DNA of 63,113 bases from Eubacteriales bacterium. GTDB lineage: Bacteria; Bacillota; Clostridia; Tissierellales; Dethiosulfatibacteraceae. This document shows positions 3,316 through 60,086 of this stretch, piece after piece. Location: positions 1 through 63,113 of the forward strand of contig JAUYTY010000075.1 in the NCBI GenBank assembly GCA_030694905.1, in the 5' to 3' direction. Each line of letters starts with the position of its first letter. Position 1 is the stretch's first letter. The notes under the pieces were generated by a model. It had not been told where the DNA came from and searched no databases. It worked only from the letters and a program-made list of their open reading frames with translations. Both the position numbers and the translations under genes were made by a program.

Positions 3316-4698
3316 ATGTTTGATCAGAATATGGATTGGCTTGAGCTGTACAAGATTATTTTTGAACAATTCTATTATTGGCTTGTTGTGACAGATAAGG
3401 ATGGCATCATTGTACTGATGAACAAGTCTTATTGTGAATTCAATCATGTGACACAAGAAGAAGCTATCGGCAAGCATGTAACTGAGGTAATCGAAAATAC
3501 CCGGATGCATATAGTTGCAAAGACAGGAATCCCAGAGATCGGCCAGGTGCAGGAAATCAACGGCAGCCATATGCTCGCGGACAGAGTCCCCATCCACAAT
3601 AAGGACGGGGAGTTGATCGGTGTGGTTGGCTCGGTGGTTTTTAAGGACATCGCAGACCTAGATTCCTACGTGAAAAAAGTAGCTCTAATGGAAAAAGAAT
3701 TGGAATATTTCAAGAAAGAATTGAAAAAAGCGAGAGGATTTGAGAATACCTTTGACAACATCATTGGAGAAAGCCAAGTATTGAAGGAAACGAAAGACCT
3801 GGCGCTTAAGGTAGCGAAAAGCAAATCGAGTGTGTTGATACTGGGAGAGAGCGGAACAGGCAAGGAGCTTTATGCCAATGCGATCCATAATGCCAGCTAT
3901 AGAAGAGACTTTGAGATGGTGAGGTTGAACTGTGCCAGTATCCCCCATGACTTGCTGGAATCAGAGCTTTTCGGATATGAGTATGGCGCGTTCACCGGTG
4001 CAAAAAGAGAAGGCAAATTAGGTAAAATAGAGATTGCTGACAAAAGCACCCTATTTCTTGACGAGATTGGAGATTTACCTCTGACAATGCAGGCTAAATT
4101 ACTGCGTTTTTTACAGGAAAAAGAAATTGAGAAAATTGGTAGCACAACCATCAAGAAGGTTGATGTAAGGGTTATTGCAGCGACTAATAAGAACCTTGAG
4201 GAAATGATTCGGCATAAGACATTCAGAGAGGATCTTTATTACCGTCTGAATATATTTAAGATTGAAATACCGCCTCTTAGAGAAAGAAAATCAGACATCC
4301 CTATTCTTGCCAAGTTTCTACTGAGAAGCAAAGCCAACGAGATGGATAGATACGTGACAGAATTCAACGATGATGCCATGAGGCTTTTAATAGACTATGA
4401 CTGGCCGGGGAATGTTAGAGAGCTTGAGAACACAATTGAAAGAGCGATTAATCTGGTAGGCAAGGAGGCGGCTATCACCAAGCATCATCTGCCCTATCAT
4501 ATCAGGGAACATAAGCTGGATCCTTATGGATATAGCAAGAGCGAGAGTTTAAAGGAAATGGTAGCCCAGCTTGAGATCAAAGAGATCAAGAATGCATTGG
4601 AGCTGAGCCTGGGAAACAAAATCCATGCCGCTAAAATTCTAAAAATCAGCAGAACAAGTCTTTATGAGAAAATGAATCGTTACCAGCTAGAGGTATGA
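3316..4698 (+). CDS. Sigma-54-dependent transcriptional activator with PAS domain
   Basis: The 460-residue protein has a PAS sensory domain (about 10-115), a charged linker, an AAA+ sigma-54 interaction domain (about 145-370) with Walker A GESGTGKE, the sigma-54 contact loop GAFTGA, Walker B FLDEIGD and the arginine-finger region, then a Fis-type helix-turn-helix ending in SRTSLYEKMNRYQL. Such proteins bind upstream sites and remodel sigma-54 RNA polymerase. Directly downstream lie three copies of a 17-bp site and a -24/-12 promoter ahead of a CoA-transferase operon, so that operon is its likely target. The PAS domain suggests a small-molecule or redox signal, not visible here. Confidence 0.92.
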   Translation: MFDQNMDWLELYKIIFEQFYYWLVVTDKDGIIVLMNKSYCEFNHVTQEEAIGKHVTEVIENTRMHIVAKTGIPEIGQVQEINGSHMLADRVPIHNKDGELIGVVGSVVFKDIADLDSYVKKVALMEKELEYFKKELKKARGFENTFDNIIGESQVLKETKDLALKVAKSKSSVLILGESGTGKELYANAIHNASYRRDFEMVRLNCASIPHDLLESELFGYEYGAFTGAKREGKLGKIEIADKSTLFLDEIGDLPLTMQAKLLRFLQEKEIEKIGSTTIKKVDVRVIAATNKNLEEMIRHKTFREDLYYRLNIFKIEIPPLRERKSDIPILAKFLLRSKANEMDRYVTEFNDDAMRLLIDYDWPGNVRELENTIERAINLVGKEAAITKHHLPYHIREHKLDPYGYSKSESLKEMVAQLEIKEIKNALELSLGNKIHAAKILKISRTSLYEKMNRYQLEV

Positions 4699-27778: not shown

Positions 27779-27848
27779 TCCCTGGATAACGGTTTCTACG
27801 GTTCAGGTGGCGTTTCAAACGCCATCTGAACCCAAGAACCCTGTTGAT
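27779..27848 (+). repeat. Interspersed structured repeat, copy A (70 bp, lacks left end)
   Basis: Starts TCCCTGGATAACGG right after the purA stop codon and ends CTGTTGAT. It contains the conserved hairpin GGTTCAGGTGGCG/CGCCATCTGAACC. It matches the right-hand 70 bp of copies C and E; the left hairpin is missing. Confidence 0.85.
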
Positions 27849-27860
27849 CAAGATATTTCC

Positions 27861-27889
27861 TTGACATGAAAAAACACATGTAGTATTAT
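27861..27889 (+). promoter_or_regulatory. tRNA-Lys promoter
   Basis: Perfect TTGACA (27861-27866), 17-bp spacer, TATTAT (27884-27889); start expected near 27896, 22 bp before the tRNA. Confidence 0.8.
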
Positions 27890-27917
27890 ATCTAAGCGGT
27901 CACTAGATGACCACTTT

Positions 27918-27993
27918 GACTCATTAGCTCAGTCGGTAGAGCATCTGACTTTTAATCAGGGTGTCCCGCGTTCGAGTCGCGGATGGGTCACCA
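27918..27993 (+). tRNA. tRNA-Lys (anticodon TTT)
   Basis: A 76-nt cloverleaf: acceptor GACTCAT/ATGGGTC, D-arm with AGCTCAGTCGGTAGAGC, anticodon stem CTGAC-loop-ATCAG with TTT, T-arm GTTCGAGTC, encoded CCA at the end. A terminator follows within 10 bp, so it is a single-gene unit. Confidence 0.97.
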
Positions 27994-27998
27994 TACAT

Positions 27999-28034
27999 AA
28001 AAAACCACCAACATCAATAGTTGGTGGTTTTTTG
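27999..28034. terminator. Bidirectional terminator between tRNA-Lys and the antiporter gene
   Basis: AAAAAACCACCAAC pairs with GTTGGTGGTTTTTT around a 7-nt loop, with T-runs in both directions. Confidence 0.92.
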
Positions 28035-28037
28035 CCA

Positions 28038-29045
28038 TTAAATCCATGTATAGTTGAGAATAATATAGATGACATATATCCCTGCTAAAAAGATGCCTTC
28101 TTTTGTAGAAATGACATGATCCTTGCTCTTTGCGAATATCCTGAAAGCCGCTAGAATTATCATCATAGTCGGGAATTGGAGCTTGTAGAACTCAACGGGA
28201 ACCAGTAAACCACCTTTTGTTACAGAGGCGGATAGCCCAACAACGAACAGCACATTCAGTATGTCAGCTCCGATGATGTTACCGACTGCCAGCTCTCCAT
28301 GGCCTTTTCTAACGGCTGTGATAGCGGTAATCAGCTCAGGTAGGCTAGTACCGAATGCAACCAGTGTGGCTGCAATGACGCTTTGGGGAATACCTACTCT
28401 AAATGCTGAAATCTCTACTGTCGGTATCAGTATTTTAGAGGATAGGATTACAATGCCAATACCTATAAGAAGCATGATGATTTGTTTGTACACAGGCTCC
28501 GAAGCACCTACTGCAATCTTGTCAAACTCACTAGGGGCTTGCCTTGCCCATTTGATGGAGTAATAGATATAAAAGATCAGCAACAGAACAAGTGCCCACC
28601 CCATCCACTGATGAATGACGCCATTGACAGCCCTTGAGAAAAATGGCAAACTGACGATTACCAATAATAGACCGGAATAAAACTGGACTTTGCCTTGTCT
28701 GTCAATGGCATTCTGATCGACAGGCAGCTTTCCTAGAATTGCAGCTATTCCGATAATAAGACCGGTATTGGCAATGATTGAGCCGACAGCATTTCCAAGA
28801 GCTAGGTCAGGATTGCCTTTGAGGGCTGCAAATACGGATACAGTCGCTTCGGGCAATGTTGTTCCCAGAGATACGATTGTGGCTCCTATGATGAGTTTTG
28901 GAACACCCCATTGAATTGATAACGCAACTGCTTGGTCAATCAGTATATCCGCGCCTTTGCTTAATGTCACAAGGGACAGTGCAAATATAAAAACCAGAGC
29001 TAGCGTCGATAAATTCTCTAAAAATCCAACAATCATTTGATCCAT
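28038..29045 (-). CDS. CaCA-family cation antiporter (YrbG-like), under a Mn-type riboswitch
   Basis: The 335-residue membrane protein has the two inverted alpha-repeats of the calcium/cation antiporter family: GATIVSLGTTLPEATVS near residue 55 with GNAVGSIIANTG, and AATLVAFGTSLPELITA near residue 225 with GNIIGADILN. About ten membrane segments. Most relatives exchange Ca2+ for Na+ or K+. A yybP-ykoY element lies in its leader, so Mn2+ export is a good alternative. ATG 29045 is chosen for GGAGGAG 6 bp ahead; the frame continues upstream to 29060. Confidence 0.9.
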   Translation of the reverse strand: MDQMIVGFLENLSTLALVFIFALSLVTLSKGADILIDQAVALSIQWGVPKLIIGATIVSLGTTLPEATVSVFAALKGNPDLALGNAVGSIIANTGLIIGIAAILGKLPVDQNAIDRQGKVQFYSGLLLVIVSLPFFSRAVNGVIHQWMGWALVLLLIFYIYYSIKWARQAPSEFDKIAVGASEPVYKQIIMLLIGIGIVILSSKILIPTVEISAFRVGIPQSVIAATLVAFGTSLPELITAITAVRKGHGELAVGNIIGADILNVLFVVGLSASVTKGGLLVPVEFYKLQFPTMMIILAAFRIFAKSKDHVISTKEGIFLAGIYVIYIILNYTWI

Positions 29046-29069
29046 TAAATACTCCTCCATCTGTTGATC

Positions 29070-29115
29070 AAAAAAGACTTTACATCAATCCACAACTGTG
29101 GAAATTGTAAAGTCT
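29070..29115 (-). terminator. Riboswitch expression-platform terminator
   Basis: On the minus strand AGACTTTACA (29115-29106) pairs with TGTAAAGTCT (29084-29075), enclosing a small inner hairpin, followed by six T. Its 5' arm overlaps the 3' end of the aptamer, so folding of the aptamer would prevent termination. Confidence 0.85.
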
Positions 29116-29203
29116 CACCAAGCATAAATATGCCATCAAAACCGGGAAATGATTTCCGTATTGACGGTTTTGATTCCTATCAAAGGCGGTTACTCCCTTT
29201 CAA
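29107..29203 (-). ncRNA. yybP-ykoY (Mn2+) riboswitch aptamer
   Basis: The minus strand carries the family landmarks in order: AAAGGGAGTAACC, paired AAAACCGTCAATACGG and CCGGTTTTGATGGCATA, then TGCTTGGTGAGACTTTA closing with the 5' part. These match the yybP-ykoY consensus (GGGGAGTA, CCGTCAA, CATA, GAGACCTTT). The class senses Mn2+ and switches genes on when it binds. It lies between a good promoter and the antiporter gene. Confidence 0.88.
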
Positions 29204-29209
29204 GAGTAC

Positions 29210-29238
29210 ATTCTATTCCTAAGAAAATATTTTGTCAA
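29210..29238 (-). promoter_or_regulatory. Promoter of the riboswitch-antiporter unit
   Basis: Minus-strand TTGACA (29238-29233), 17-bp spacer, TAGAAT (29215-29210); start expected a few bases before the aptamer. Confidence 0.8.
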
Positions 29239-29335
29239 TAGAATCAATGAAAATAAATAAAATTAATATGGTTGATTTATTGGTGTAAATATGAAAAAAT
29301 AAGGTGGGTGGAAATAACAGAATTAATGAGGACAA

Positions 29336-30733
29336 ATGGATACTATTGCCAGTAAAACAGATATGACGAAAGTGACATTTAAGTTAGCTTTGCCTTCAAT
29401 AATGGAAATGTTGATGCAAACCCTTTTAGGAGTAGCTGACACCGCTATGGTGGGTACTCTTGGAGGCGTCGCCATTGCAGCTGTCGGATTGTCAGATAAT
29501 CCTCTGATGGTGATGATGGCTTTTTTTGCAGCCATAAGTGTAGGAACAACAGCACTTGTAGCGAGATTCATCGGGGCTAGAAACTATAGGGACGCAGAGG
29601 AGACAATCAAGCAATCCCTCATTATCAGTCTGATAGCATCAGTTGTCTTTACTGCTGTCATGCTGATTTTATCAGAGAGAATTACCTTGTGGATGGGAGC
29701 TGAGCCTGACGTGCTGCCCTATGCCACACAATACCTGTCTATAGCGCTGATAGGCTTGCCGGGTATGATTATCACCATGATCATGTCAGGCGCTTTGAGA
29801 GGAGCGGGAGATACAAAGACACCTATGCTTGTCAATGGCTTCTCAAATGTGATAAACATTATAGGGAACTTTATTTTGATTTTTCCTACAAGATTTGTGC
29901 ATTTTGATTTTCCTGGTATCACTGACGGTTTTACTGTCAAAATTCTTGGTGCTGGATTGGGTGTCGGCGGAGCTGCTGCGTCTACAAGTTTTAGCAGATT
30001 ACTGGCAGGTGTATTGATATTATATGTCATTTTTAGAAAAAAAGGCAAATATGGCATTAGTGTAAACCGGAAGACCTGCTTCAATAAAGAAATCATCATG
30101 AGGATTTTGAGAATTGGATTTCCTGCCGCAGCTGAACAGATGCTGATGCGATTGGCACAGCTTACGTTTTTTAGAATTATAGCAACATTGGGAACGGTTA
30201 TGATAGCAGCGCATAAAATCACTATGACAGCTGAATCCATATCATTTATGCCAGGTTGGGGATTTGCCTTGGCAGCAACCACACTAGTCGGTCAATATTT
30301 GGGTGGAGAAGACCCGGATAAAGCAAAACTGGGTGGTTTCACAGCTGCTAAGATGGCTATTACAGTCATGACAGTATTTGGTGTGTTATTCTTCTTATTT
30401 CCAAGATATTTTGTATTGATATTCACAAGGGATGAGGAAATCATAAGATATGCTTCTACATGCCTTCGAATTATAGCTTTCTCCCAACCTTCCCTGGCAG
30501 CTACCATGGTATTTGCCGGCGCTCTCAGAGGAGCAGGTGATACAAAGACCGTGCTTTGGGTTACGGCTGTGGGCACTTGGGTGGTAAGAGTCGGTGGCGG
30601 TTATATTCTGGCAATCACCTTGGGATACGGATTGGCTGGGGCATGGGCTGCAATGGTTGCGGATTTCACATTGCGAGGTTTGGTTTTCTTCTATATTTTT
30701 AACAAGGGAAAATGGAAACATATAAAAGTATAA
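29336..30733 (+). CDS. MATE-family efflux transporter
   Basis: The 465-residue protein has 12 predicted membrane segments in two homologous halves; both halves contain SGALRGAGDTKTP-like blocks (near 138 and near 390). Family members expel drugs and cationic compounds with Na+ or H+. The start has only a weak ribosome site (TGAGGA, close to ATG 29336). A terminator follows at once. It is divergent from the antiporter unit; specificity cannot be told. Confidence 0.93.
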   Translation: MDTIASKTDMTKVTFKLALPSIMEMLMQTLLGVADTAMVGTLGGVAIAAVGLSDNPLMVMMAFFAAISVGTTALVARFIGARNYRDAEETIKQSLIISLIASVVFTAVMLILSERITLWMGAEPDVLPYATQYLSIALIGLPGMIITMIMSGALRGAGDTKTPMLVNGFSNVINIIGNFILIFPTRFVHFDFPGITDGFTVKILGAGLGVGGAAASTSFSRLLAGVLILYVIFRKKGKYGISVNRKTCFNKEIIMRILRIGFPAAAEQMLMRLAQLTFFRIIATLGTVMIAAHKITMTAESISFMPGWGFALAATTLVGQYLGGEDPDKAKLGGFTAAKMAITVMTVFGVLFFLFPRYFVLIFTRDEEIIRYASTCLRIIAFSQPSLAATMVFAGALRGAGDTKTVLWVTAVGTWVVRVGGGYILAITLGYGLAGAWAAMVADFTLRGLVFFYIFNKGKWKHIKV

Positions 30734-32689: not shown

Positions 32690-32945
32690 AAAATAAAAAA
32701 ACCGTCTCCATAAACACAGAGACGGAAAATCCGCGGTACCACTCTAATTGCCTTGAAAGGCCACTTTTCAGGTTCTAGCAAACCTTGATCAATAACGAGA
32801 TCAAACGGTGCTACTTACTGTTTTCAGAAGCACTTCTCAGGAGTGATTTGTACTTTGATCTTGCTGACGACTTACACCAAACGCCGTCTCTCTGGGAGCA
32901 ATGTTATCAAAGCAACTGTCTCCGTCAATGAATTTAGTTGATATT
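32690..32945 (-). ncRNA. T-box leader (isoleucine) of ilvA
   Basis: The minus strand shows a stem I with AGAGAGACGG/TTTGGTG distal loops, the specifier-side segment ATC-A-CTCCTGAG (ATC at 32847-32845), the T-box AGAGTGGTACCGCGGA (32745-32730) and a terminator. The base of stem I pairs GGAG with CTCC, placing ATC (Ile) as specifier. Uncharged tRNA-Ile should favour antitermination. Confidence 0.88.
32695..32725 (-). terminator. T-box terminator of ilvA
   Basis: Minus-strand CCGTCTC (32725-32719 side) pairs with GAGACGG (32708-32702 side), followed by seven T; it competes with the T-box antiterminator. Confidence 0.88.
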
Positions 32946-33039: not shown

Positions 33040-33328
33040 TATAAAAGCTGCGACAGAGACAAAAACGTCATATATGTGGATAAAGAGAGCCGGTGTTTGG
33101 TGAAAACCGGTGAAGCATGGATGTTATGATCACTCTTGAGCTGCCGAATCGAAAGCTATTGCCAGTAGATGAGGACGTTTGCCTACGTTACAGGGATAGG
33201 GTTCAAAGACCATGTGGCCTTCTGACCTGATAAGAGGTAGTTTTACAACTACAAATAGGGTGGTACCGCGAAAGACCTTTCGTCCCTATACACATCAGTT
33301 TATGTGTATAGAGATGAGAGGTTTTTTT
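33040..33328 (+). ncRNA. T-box leader (isoleucine) of the ilv operon
   Basis: Contains stem I features AGAGAGCCGG and TTTGGTG, the specifier-side ATC-A-CTCTTGAG (ATC at 33129-33131) with base pairing AGAG (33055-33058) to CTCT (33133-33136), the T-box AGGGTGGTACCGCG (33257-33270) and a terminator ending in seven T at about 33321-33327. Same ATC (Ile) specifier as the divergent ilvA leader. Confidence 0.9.
33275..33328 (+). terminator. T-box terminator of the ilv operon
   Basis: A long stem: ACCTTTCGTC region with CTATACACA pairs with TGTGTATAG and GATGAGAGGT, followed by seven T. It competes with the antiterminator that includes the T-box sequence. Confidence 0.85.
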
Positions 33329-59956: not shown

Positions 59957-60086
59957 TCCGATGACTAACAGTGCTAAAGCTCCCACTTCTAGAAGTGGGA
60001 GATAAGCACTGTAGAGTCCCTGGATAACGGTTTCTAAGGTTCAGATGGCGTTTGAAACGCCACCTGGACCCAAGAATCCTGTTGAT
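59957..60086 (+). repeat. Interspersed structured repeat, copy E (130 bp, full length)
   Basis: Same layout as copy C: TCCGATGACTAACAGTGCT, hairpin CTCCCACTTCT/AGAAGTGGGAG, AGCACTGTAGAG, TCCCTGGATAACGG, hairpin GGTTCAGATGGCG/CGCCACCTGGACC, end CCTGTTGAT. TTTA precedes its left end. An ATG at 60045 inside it opens the transporter frame but is not the likely start. Confidence 0.9.

Follow-up and report, generated by a model that had tools for sequence, protein, structure and literature searches.

The window, meaning the whole stretch of 63,113 nt that was analysed (contig JAUYTY010000075.1 of the Eubacteriales bacterium assembly GCA_030694905.1), carries an antiporter gene on its reverse strand, called as an open reading frame of 340 amino acids at 28038–29060 (−). 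Translation likely starts at the second ATG of this frame, at 29045, which would give a protein of 335 amino acids, because the putative Shine-Dalgarno sequence GGAGGAG, read from the sequence at 29052–29058 (−), falls within the opening codons of the longer frame. Upstream lies a promoter-like site, TTGACA-17 nt-TAGAAT, at 29210–29238 (−), with 11 of 12 consensus matches. The span that the earlier note gave for riboswitch and gene, 28038–29238, agrees with these limits, as the reading frame occupies 28038–29060 (−) and the −35 box TTGACA begins at 29238. The promoter scan, which reports consensus matches only, returned nine matches vs. 4.5 in shuffled sequences, and similar −35 and −10 boxes are seen by eye, uncounted, at the equivalent position in many leaders of relatives. 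Beyond the 3′ end of the antiporter gene lies a tRNA-Lys, separated from it by a two-way terminator-like hairpin at 28000–28033 (no strand assigned), which was recognized by eye and is absent from the consensus terminator scan with loops of 3–8. A divergent gene on the forward strand appears MatE-like, a family named from the reading frame only.

Further elements were observed elsewhere in the window. Two divergent T-box leaders lie at 32937–32715 (−) and 33041–33290 (+), scoring 124 and 120 bits; one precedes a threonine dehydratase-like reading frame and the other lies towards a ketol-acid reductoisomerase-like reading frame, the families of these neighbours being named from their reading frames. 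A dispersed short repeat, GGTTCARRTGGCGTTTNAA, occurs at 27800–27832, 30798, 36458, 48230, and 60038–60070 (seven matches with at most two mismatches, none in shuffled sequences), two of these sites being inverted pairs. By eye, a similar copy precedes the P-type ATPase gene of the same genome (L224), and a tandem unit of ~36 bases (CAGTGCTAAGACTCCCACTTCTATC...) is seen at ~3540–3640 (−) of L224, at the contig end.

Antiporter loci for comparison were drawn from the order (249 genomes, of which 62 gave a match, with loci for 30 places), from the family (eight genomes, six with a match) and from named genomes (80 loci, the best of 203). A regular expression applied to 111 leaders picked 53 of them, comprising 43 distinct aptamers, and missed 58. 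The model R1, built from the 43 distinct leaders with the window sequence included, finds the aptamer at 29205–29104 (−) with 96.9 bits and an E-value of 1.1e-22 in a search of the whole genome to which the window belongs. In a DNA search with the leader against the eight genomes of the family, clear matches were obtained in four only (G000, G001, G002, and G007; E ≤ 3e-15), the remaining ones being short, with weak E-values of 0.009 or higher. The leader also folds more stably than its shuffled versions (−47.8 vs. −33.4 ± 3.8 kcal/mol; z −3.8), none of 200 shuffles reaching as low a value. The R1 match, this excess of structure and the covariation over the 43 leaders described below support the earlier claim that a complete yybP-ykoY aptamer precedes the antiporter gene.

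The whole yybP-ykoY (Mn2+) riboswitch aptamer, assigned by the R1 match and covariation, spans 29104–29205 (−) and exhibits a four-way junction of P1, P2, P3, and P4 with the loops L1 and L3. All its parts lie on the reverse strand: the 5′ strand of P1.1, AAAG, at 29197–29200, forms four pairs followed by a G-A mismatch; the 5′ strand of L1, GGAGUAAC, at 29189–29196, holds G8, G9, A10 ... A14, and C15; L3, UCAAUAC, at 29158–29164, places A41, the N7 ligand, at 29162; the 3′ strand of L1, GUGAGAC, at 29112–29118, corresponds to G90, U91, G92, A93, G94, A95, and C96; and the 3′ strand of P1.1, CUUU, which is shared with a terminator, lies at 29109–29112. This numbering is that of the Lactococcus lactis yoaB aptamer, compared in what we take to be its full sequence, and its register on the window is that of our own alignment.

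A structure of 29 pairs was drafted from the L. lactis scheme and scored on the 43 leaders. Here, 88.5% of cells are paired and double changes occur in 22 of the 29 pairs, vs. a shuffled mean of 15.1, while the covariation score of 0.355 compares with 0.171 for shuffled and at most 0.113 for slid versions of the structure; further pair types are no more numerous than expected by chance, 86 of 500 shuffles being as high. Helix 1 (P1.1) is paired in 96.7% of cells, with double changes in four of its five pairs, and P2 in only 57.1%; P4 appears absent in seven of the 43 relatives (L040, L042–L046, and L112). In the window itself, P1.1 is short (AAAG/CUUU). The minimum free energy (MFE) fold of the isolated aptamer contains P1.2, P2, P3, and P4, with the outer helix in a register other than P1.1, and its stability is little above that of shuffled sequences (z −1.29; 21 of 200 as low).

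The Rfam 15 model of the class, RF00080, does not recognize the aptamer: nothing in the window exceeds its cut-off, and even at E ≤ 10 both 28900–29400 and the whole genome stay without a match. Leaders of the relatives’ antiporter gene were scanned at 14 loci, and nine of these gave a match with E-values from 6e-11 to 0.012, one of them over the cut-off; L027, L048, and three spirochaete loci (L079, L084, and L089) among these 14 give no match. On the genome level, RF00080 exceeds its cut-off in one of the 249 genomes of the order and in two of 14 control genomes, and at E ≤ 0.01 it matches 38 of the 249 genomes as opposed to 188 for R1, a model favoured there by its origin in leaders of this order. 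At 20 loci with other downstream genes, six matches reach E ≤ 0.1, none of them over the cut-off. As RF00080 is thus weak across the order, yet matches leaders of relatives, its failure in the window was not taken as exclusion and reflects the model more than it does the window; membership of the class rests on the comparison with relatives. Regulon surveys run at the RF00080 cut-off would miss these elements in this order. Among other RNA families, RF02617 (Streptococcus sRNA 10) overlaps the elements in L043, L168, L172, L185, and L187, and a RAGATH-18 RNA was found in L051 at 4124–4052 (−) with 70.5 bits.

An overlapping terminator, also proposed by the earlier note, can be traced at the 3′ end of the aptamer. 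In the MFE fold, the stem GAGACUUUACA/UGUAAAGUCUU, of 11 pairs and followed by a T run, occupies 29070–29116 (−), the stretch 29116–29070 reaching −19.5 kcal/mol; a consensus scan with loops limited to 3–8 listed no terminator in 27800–29500. The 3′ strand of P1.1 (29112–29109) falls within the 5′ arm of the terminator (29116–29106), so that one strand of the closing helix is common to both structures, the layout expected of a transcriptional ON riboswitch. The same layout is found in 41 of the 43 leaders, in which at least four of the five P1.1 bases pair in a hairpin ending at a T run; the exceptions are L067, with three bases, and L041, with none within the ~80 bases examined. Due to this shared strand, the ligand should turn the gene on, a direction which fits the presence of an exporter gene downstream.

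The metal site of the class is known from L. lactis, where Mn2+ is bound by the phosphates of G9, U39, C40, U44, and C45 and by the N7 of A41 (accessible part of PMC9190785), and where A10 of L1 docks on P3.1 (accessible part of PMC6754395). In the window, G9 corresponds to 29195, A10 to 29194, U39-C40-A41 to 29164–29162, and C45 to 29158, and all residues of the site are kept except position 44, which is A and not U. The window carries L1 GGAGUA together with A41 after C40 in L3, and the C40 and A41 columns are invariant in 43 of 43 leaders; the invariance of L1 is not independent, since its letters belonged to the pattern that picked the 43. Since the metal contacts are mostly phosphates, the sequence alone cannot fix the ion.

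L1 of the window departs from that of L. lactis by A14-U91 for G14-C91 and by G92 for A92. Over 82 sequences (the 43 antiporter leaders and 39 others chosen from R1 matches), the 14-91 pair is A-U in 41, G-U in six, and G-C in 35; the patterns permitted only A or G at position 14 and, in the 43, only U or C at position 91, so that A-C was the sole non-standard pair able to appear in the 43, where it was not seen. G92, which may form a sheared pair in a sarcin-ricin-like L1, precedes antiporter, MntP, GDT1, OAD_beta, and P-type ATPase genes among the 82 sequences, and the window’s variant L1 letters are likewise found before genes for MntP manganese pumps and P-type ATPases. These gene classes were assigned by short motifs, with Pfam confirming one P-type ATPase, one GDT1, two MntP, and one OAD_beta. 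A new ligand class, suggested by the unusual L1 (GUAA/GUGAGA) and by the failure of the Rfam model, was considered and rejected as the leading view, because the 14-91 pair covaries, because the variant letters also occur before MntP and P-type ATPase genes and because RF00080 also misses the three canonical-looking spirochaete leaders. The L1 departures thus do not seem to mark another ligand.

The antiporter belongs to the CaCA superfamily, as indicated by two alpha repeats, a PF01699 match at E 1.3e-61 and a score for the TIGR00367 calcium/sodium antiporter of 181.4 bits, above the cut-off of 179.65. The expectation that it would usually be annotated as a Ca2+/Na+ antiporter is therefore correct, as the family models give that name. 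Its description as YrbG-like is looser: the assignment as a calcium/sodium antiporter stands, but the protein scores only 162.7 bits against a cut-off of 432 with PRK10734, which we take to be the YrbG model. Among solved structures, the relatives are chains of the Methanocaldococcus jannaschii exchanger NCX_Mj (PDB sequence match, E 6.5e-30), a Na+/Ca2+ exchanger (PDB 5jdf and others) of the same family. Judged by alignment against what we take to be the list of NCX_Mj ligand residues, T50, E54, S77, N81, A206, T209, S210, and E213 are kept in the window antiporter, and the changes are A47S, S51T, S236A, N237D, and D240N. With the core of the Ca2+ site intact, transport of Ca2+ is possible, and the protein sequence does not choose between Mn2+ and Ca2+. 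The motif GAD(I/V)LN in the second alpha repeat marks the clade, paralogues having GANILN, GSNIFN, and the like; exceptions among the printed rows are L038, L048, and L049 (L002, L004, L005, L006, L035, and L050 lie outside these rows). As a mark of Mn specificity the motif was discarded, given that clade members without the element have it and four element-bearing paralogues do not; it is only a lead in that direction.

Within the order, 29 clade loci have a readable leader, and R1 matches upstream of the gene in 27 of them, the misses being L038 and L047; L004 and L006, at contig ends, and L049, 41% identical and without an element, are excluded from the 29. Because R1 was built from these leaders, its scores are not independent, and the pattern search found the same loci. 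Other CaCA paralogues of the order bear an upstream element in four of 40 loci (L226, L228, L230, and L235), for which ~350–450 upstream bases were covered vs. up to 1500 in the clade loci; a fifth clear match, in L242, follows the antiporter rather than preceding it and serves a P-type ATPase. Of the 80 clade loci taken from named genomes as the best of 203, only 26 carry the element, in Bacillota and three spirochaetes; it is absent from those of Poribacteria, Latescibacterota, and Verrucomicrobiota, and a few of the 80, such as L076 and L057, are too short upstream to judge. The protein is therefore not tied to Mn regulation everywhere. A tree of 107 rows was computed after dropping nine duplicates, 29 of the 39 loci L091–L129 and translations of <280 amino acids (L002, L004, L005, L006, L035, L237, and L239). 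Elements occur in 41 of its 69 clade rows and in four of its 38 other rows, with 14 changes of the element label vs. a shuffled mean of 34.6, at least seven of them forced by starred branches; as long branches meet in the tree, counts of gains are unsure.

Like the window element, which lies upstream of a cation transporter gene, elements in related genomes also precede genes for MntP, GDT1, cation P-type ATPases, and OAD_beta. At E ≤ 0.001, neither MntP nor Nramp is matched in the genome of the window, and the GDT1 and P-type ATPase genes of this genome lack a convincing element, with ~150 bases covered before the ATPase gene. A weak R1 match near the latter (16.4 bits) lies inside a coding region and was dismissed as chance. 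A second yybP-ykoY element is present in the same genome (L131 1256–2603, G000:C119; R1 43.7 bits), followed by a terminator-like hairpin recognized by eye and preceding a Na+-transporting decarboxylase beta-subunit gene (OAD_beta, PF03977, E 1.2e-154); no alpha subunit was seen by eye within the ≤1.4 kb beyond this gene. Five more pairs of element and OAD_beta were identified by motif among 38 other loci (L168, L172, L173, L178, and L181), and a DtxR/MntR-type regulator follows the gene in L172 (by eye) and L173 (by Pfam). Stand-alone OAD_beta may act as a Mn2+ exporter. A literature search found no report linking OadB or oxaloacetate decarboxylase with yybP or a Mn2+ riboswitch, and this pairing may be newer than the antiporter finding.

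Taken together, it is highly likely that the locus holds a yybP-ykoY (Mn2+) transcriptional ON riboswitch controlling a CaCA antiporter that exports Mn2+. Judged by its sequence, the riboswitch is real and very probably Mn2+-sensing, and the antiporter very probably exports Mn2+. At low Mn2+, the polymerase would form the terminator at 29116–29070 and halt before the gene. In excess Mn2+, Mg2+ and Mn2+ would dock L1 onto L3, and this docking would hold P1.1 (AAAG/CUUU) and withhold its 3′ strand from the terminator, whereupon the CaCA antiporter would be made. The antiporter, driven most likely by Na+ or H+, would then export Mn2+, and perhaps Ca2+ too, thereby easing the stress. The basis by sequence comprises the aptamer, its covariation, the terminator overlap and the gene family; we infer which ligand the aptamer binds, which way the switch works in cells, and which ions the antiporter transports and couples to. 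The earlier proposal of Mn2+-induced Mn2+ export is favoured by the architecture, the Mn2+-site residues, the ON-type overlap and the occurrence of the same element before MntP, GDT1, and P-type ATPase genes, and, by analogy, by a CaCA precedent in Bordetella pertussis (accessible part of PMC8546581).

The alternative that survives best, though improbable, is that the aptamer responds to Ca2+, or equally to Ca2+ and Mn2+, and that the antiporter is a true Ca2+/Na+ exchanger for Ca2+ export, as the gene family name and the intact core of the Ca2+ site would suggest. Variants of yybP for other divalent ions were expected by Sherlock and Breaker, Ca2+ being a strong candidate ligand for undiscovered classes (accessible parts of PMC7266159 and PMC10043782), and, according to a review, the streptococcal mgtA aptamer has a higher affinity for Ca2+ than for Mn2+, although Mn2+ is the stronger activator (accessible part of PMC9495176). 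However, A41 with its N7 is kept, the departing L1 letters also precede MntP genes, and canonical-looking GUAGC/GCAAGAC elements precede the same clade in the three spirochaete loci (L079, L084, and L089); furthermore, added Ca was without effect on the B. pertussis CaCA gene (stated as data not shown in the accessible part of PMC8546581). In a narrower form, the A14-U91/G92 leaders of the clade (36 of 43) would form a subclass with Ca2+, or Ca2+ and Mn2+ in equal measure, as its ligand, which appears quite unlikely; if true, this subclass would be a Ca2+-responsive riboswitch before a true Ca2+/Na+ antiporter, and the literature search found no report of a calcium riboswitch.

It is similarly doubtful, and less probable than Ca2+ sensing with Ca2+ export, that a Mn2+ riboswitch controls an antiporter which mainly moves another ion, for example to keep Na+ and Ca2+ in balance during Mn stress. 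Proteins with this fold are known as Ca2+ antiporters, and no transport data for the clade were found among the literature matches listed, but the riboswitch class is tied to a Mn exporter (accessible part of PMC7266159), the Mn content of B. pertussis cells is ~5-fold lower where the CaCA copy works (accessible part of PMC8546581), and four distant CaCA loci also bear the element. Finally, a chance or decayed fold, as might be argued from the missing RF00080 call, the short P1.1 and the z of only −1.29 for the isolated aptamer, is very hard to reconcile with the conserved L3 core, the covariation across 43 leaders and the presence of both a promoter-like site and a terminator.

Read as a Mn2+ ON switch before a Mn2+ exporter, the locus would bring a group of CaCA antiporters, which family models name Ca2+/Na+ antiporters, into the likely Mn2+ efflux repertoire of Clostridia. 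Its closest functional precedent is BP3410, the CaCA antiporter that a yybP-ykoY riboswitch controls in B. pertussis; its induction by Mn is lost on changing two conserved G residues or the promoter (accessible part of PMC8546581). As this is the claim of the earlier note in another species, the pairing was already known, and the locus represents a new example of it, less new than first thought; no further report of a CaCA gene under yybP-ykoY was found among the literature matches listed. BP3410 and the window antiporter share the gene superfamily, with the M. jannaschii exchanger as the closest solved relative of both, and each has the same riboswitch class upstream and a promoter before it, whereas the host of BP3410 belongs to a different phylum and the likeness is drawn at the level of the superfamily.

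Among other Mn riboswitches, one listed in a review for C. difficile precedes a P-type ATPase (accessible part of PMC11477304). The streptococcal mgtA riboswitch, like that of the window, lies before a transporter linked to Ca2+, but controls a Mn2+/Ca2+ ATPase and has a three-way junction, in contrast to the antiporter and four-way junction of the window (accessible part of PMC9495176). The L. lactis yoaB riboswitch (PDB 4Y1I; accessible part of PMC9190785) resembles the window in L1 GGAGUA and L3 UCA41, its L3 letters being those given in the accessible part of PMC6754395. In both, P1.1 is common to the terminator, and as in this ON switch, the ligand should hold P1.1 in the window and switch transcription on; the window differs in A14-U91 for G14-C91, G92 for A92, a shorter P1.1 and the CaCA gene that it controls.
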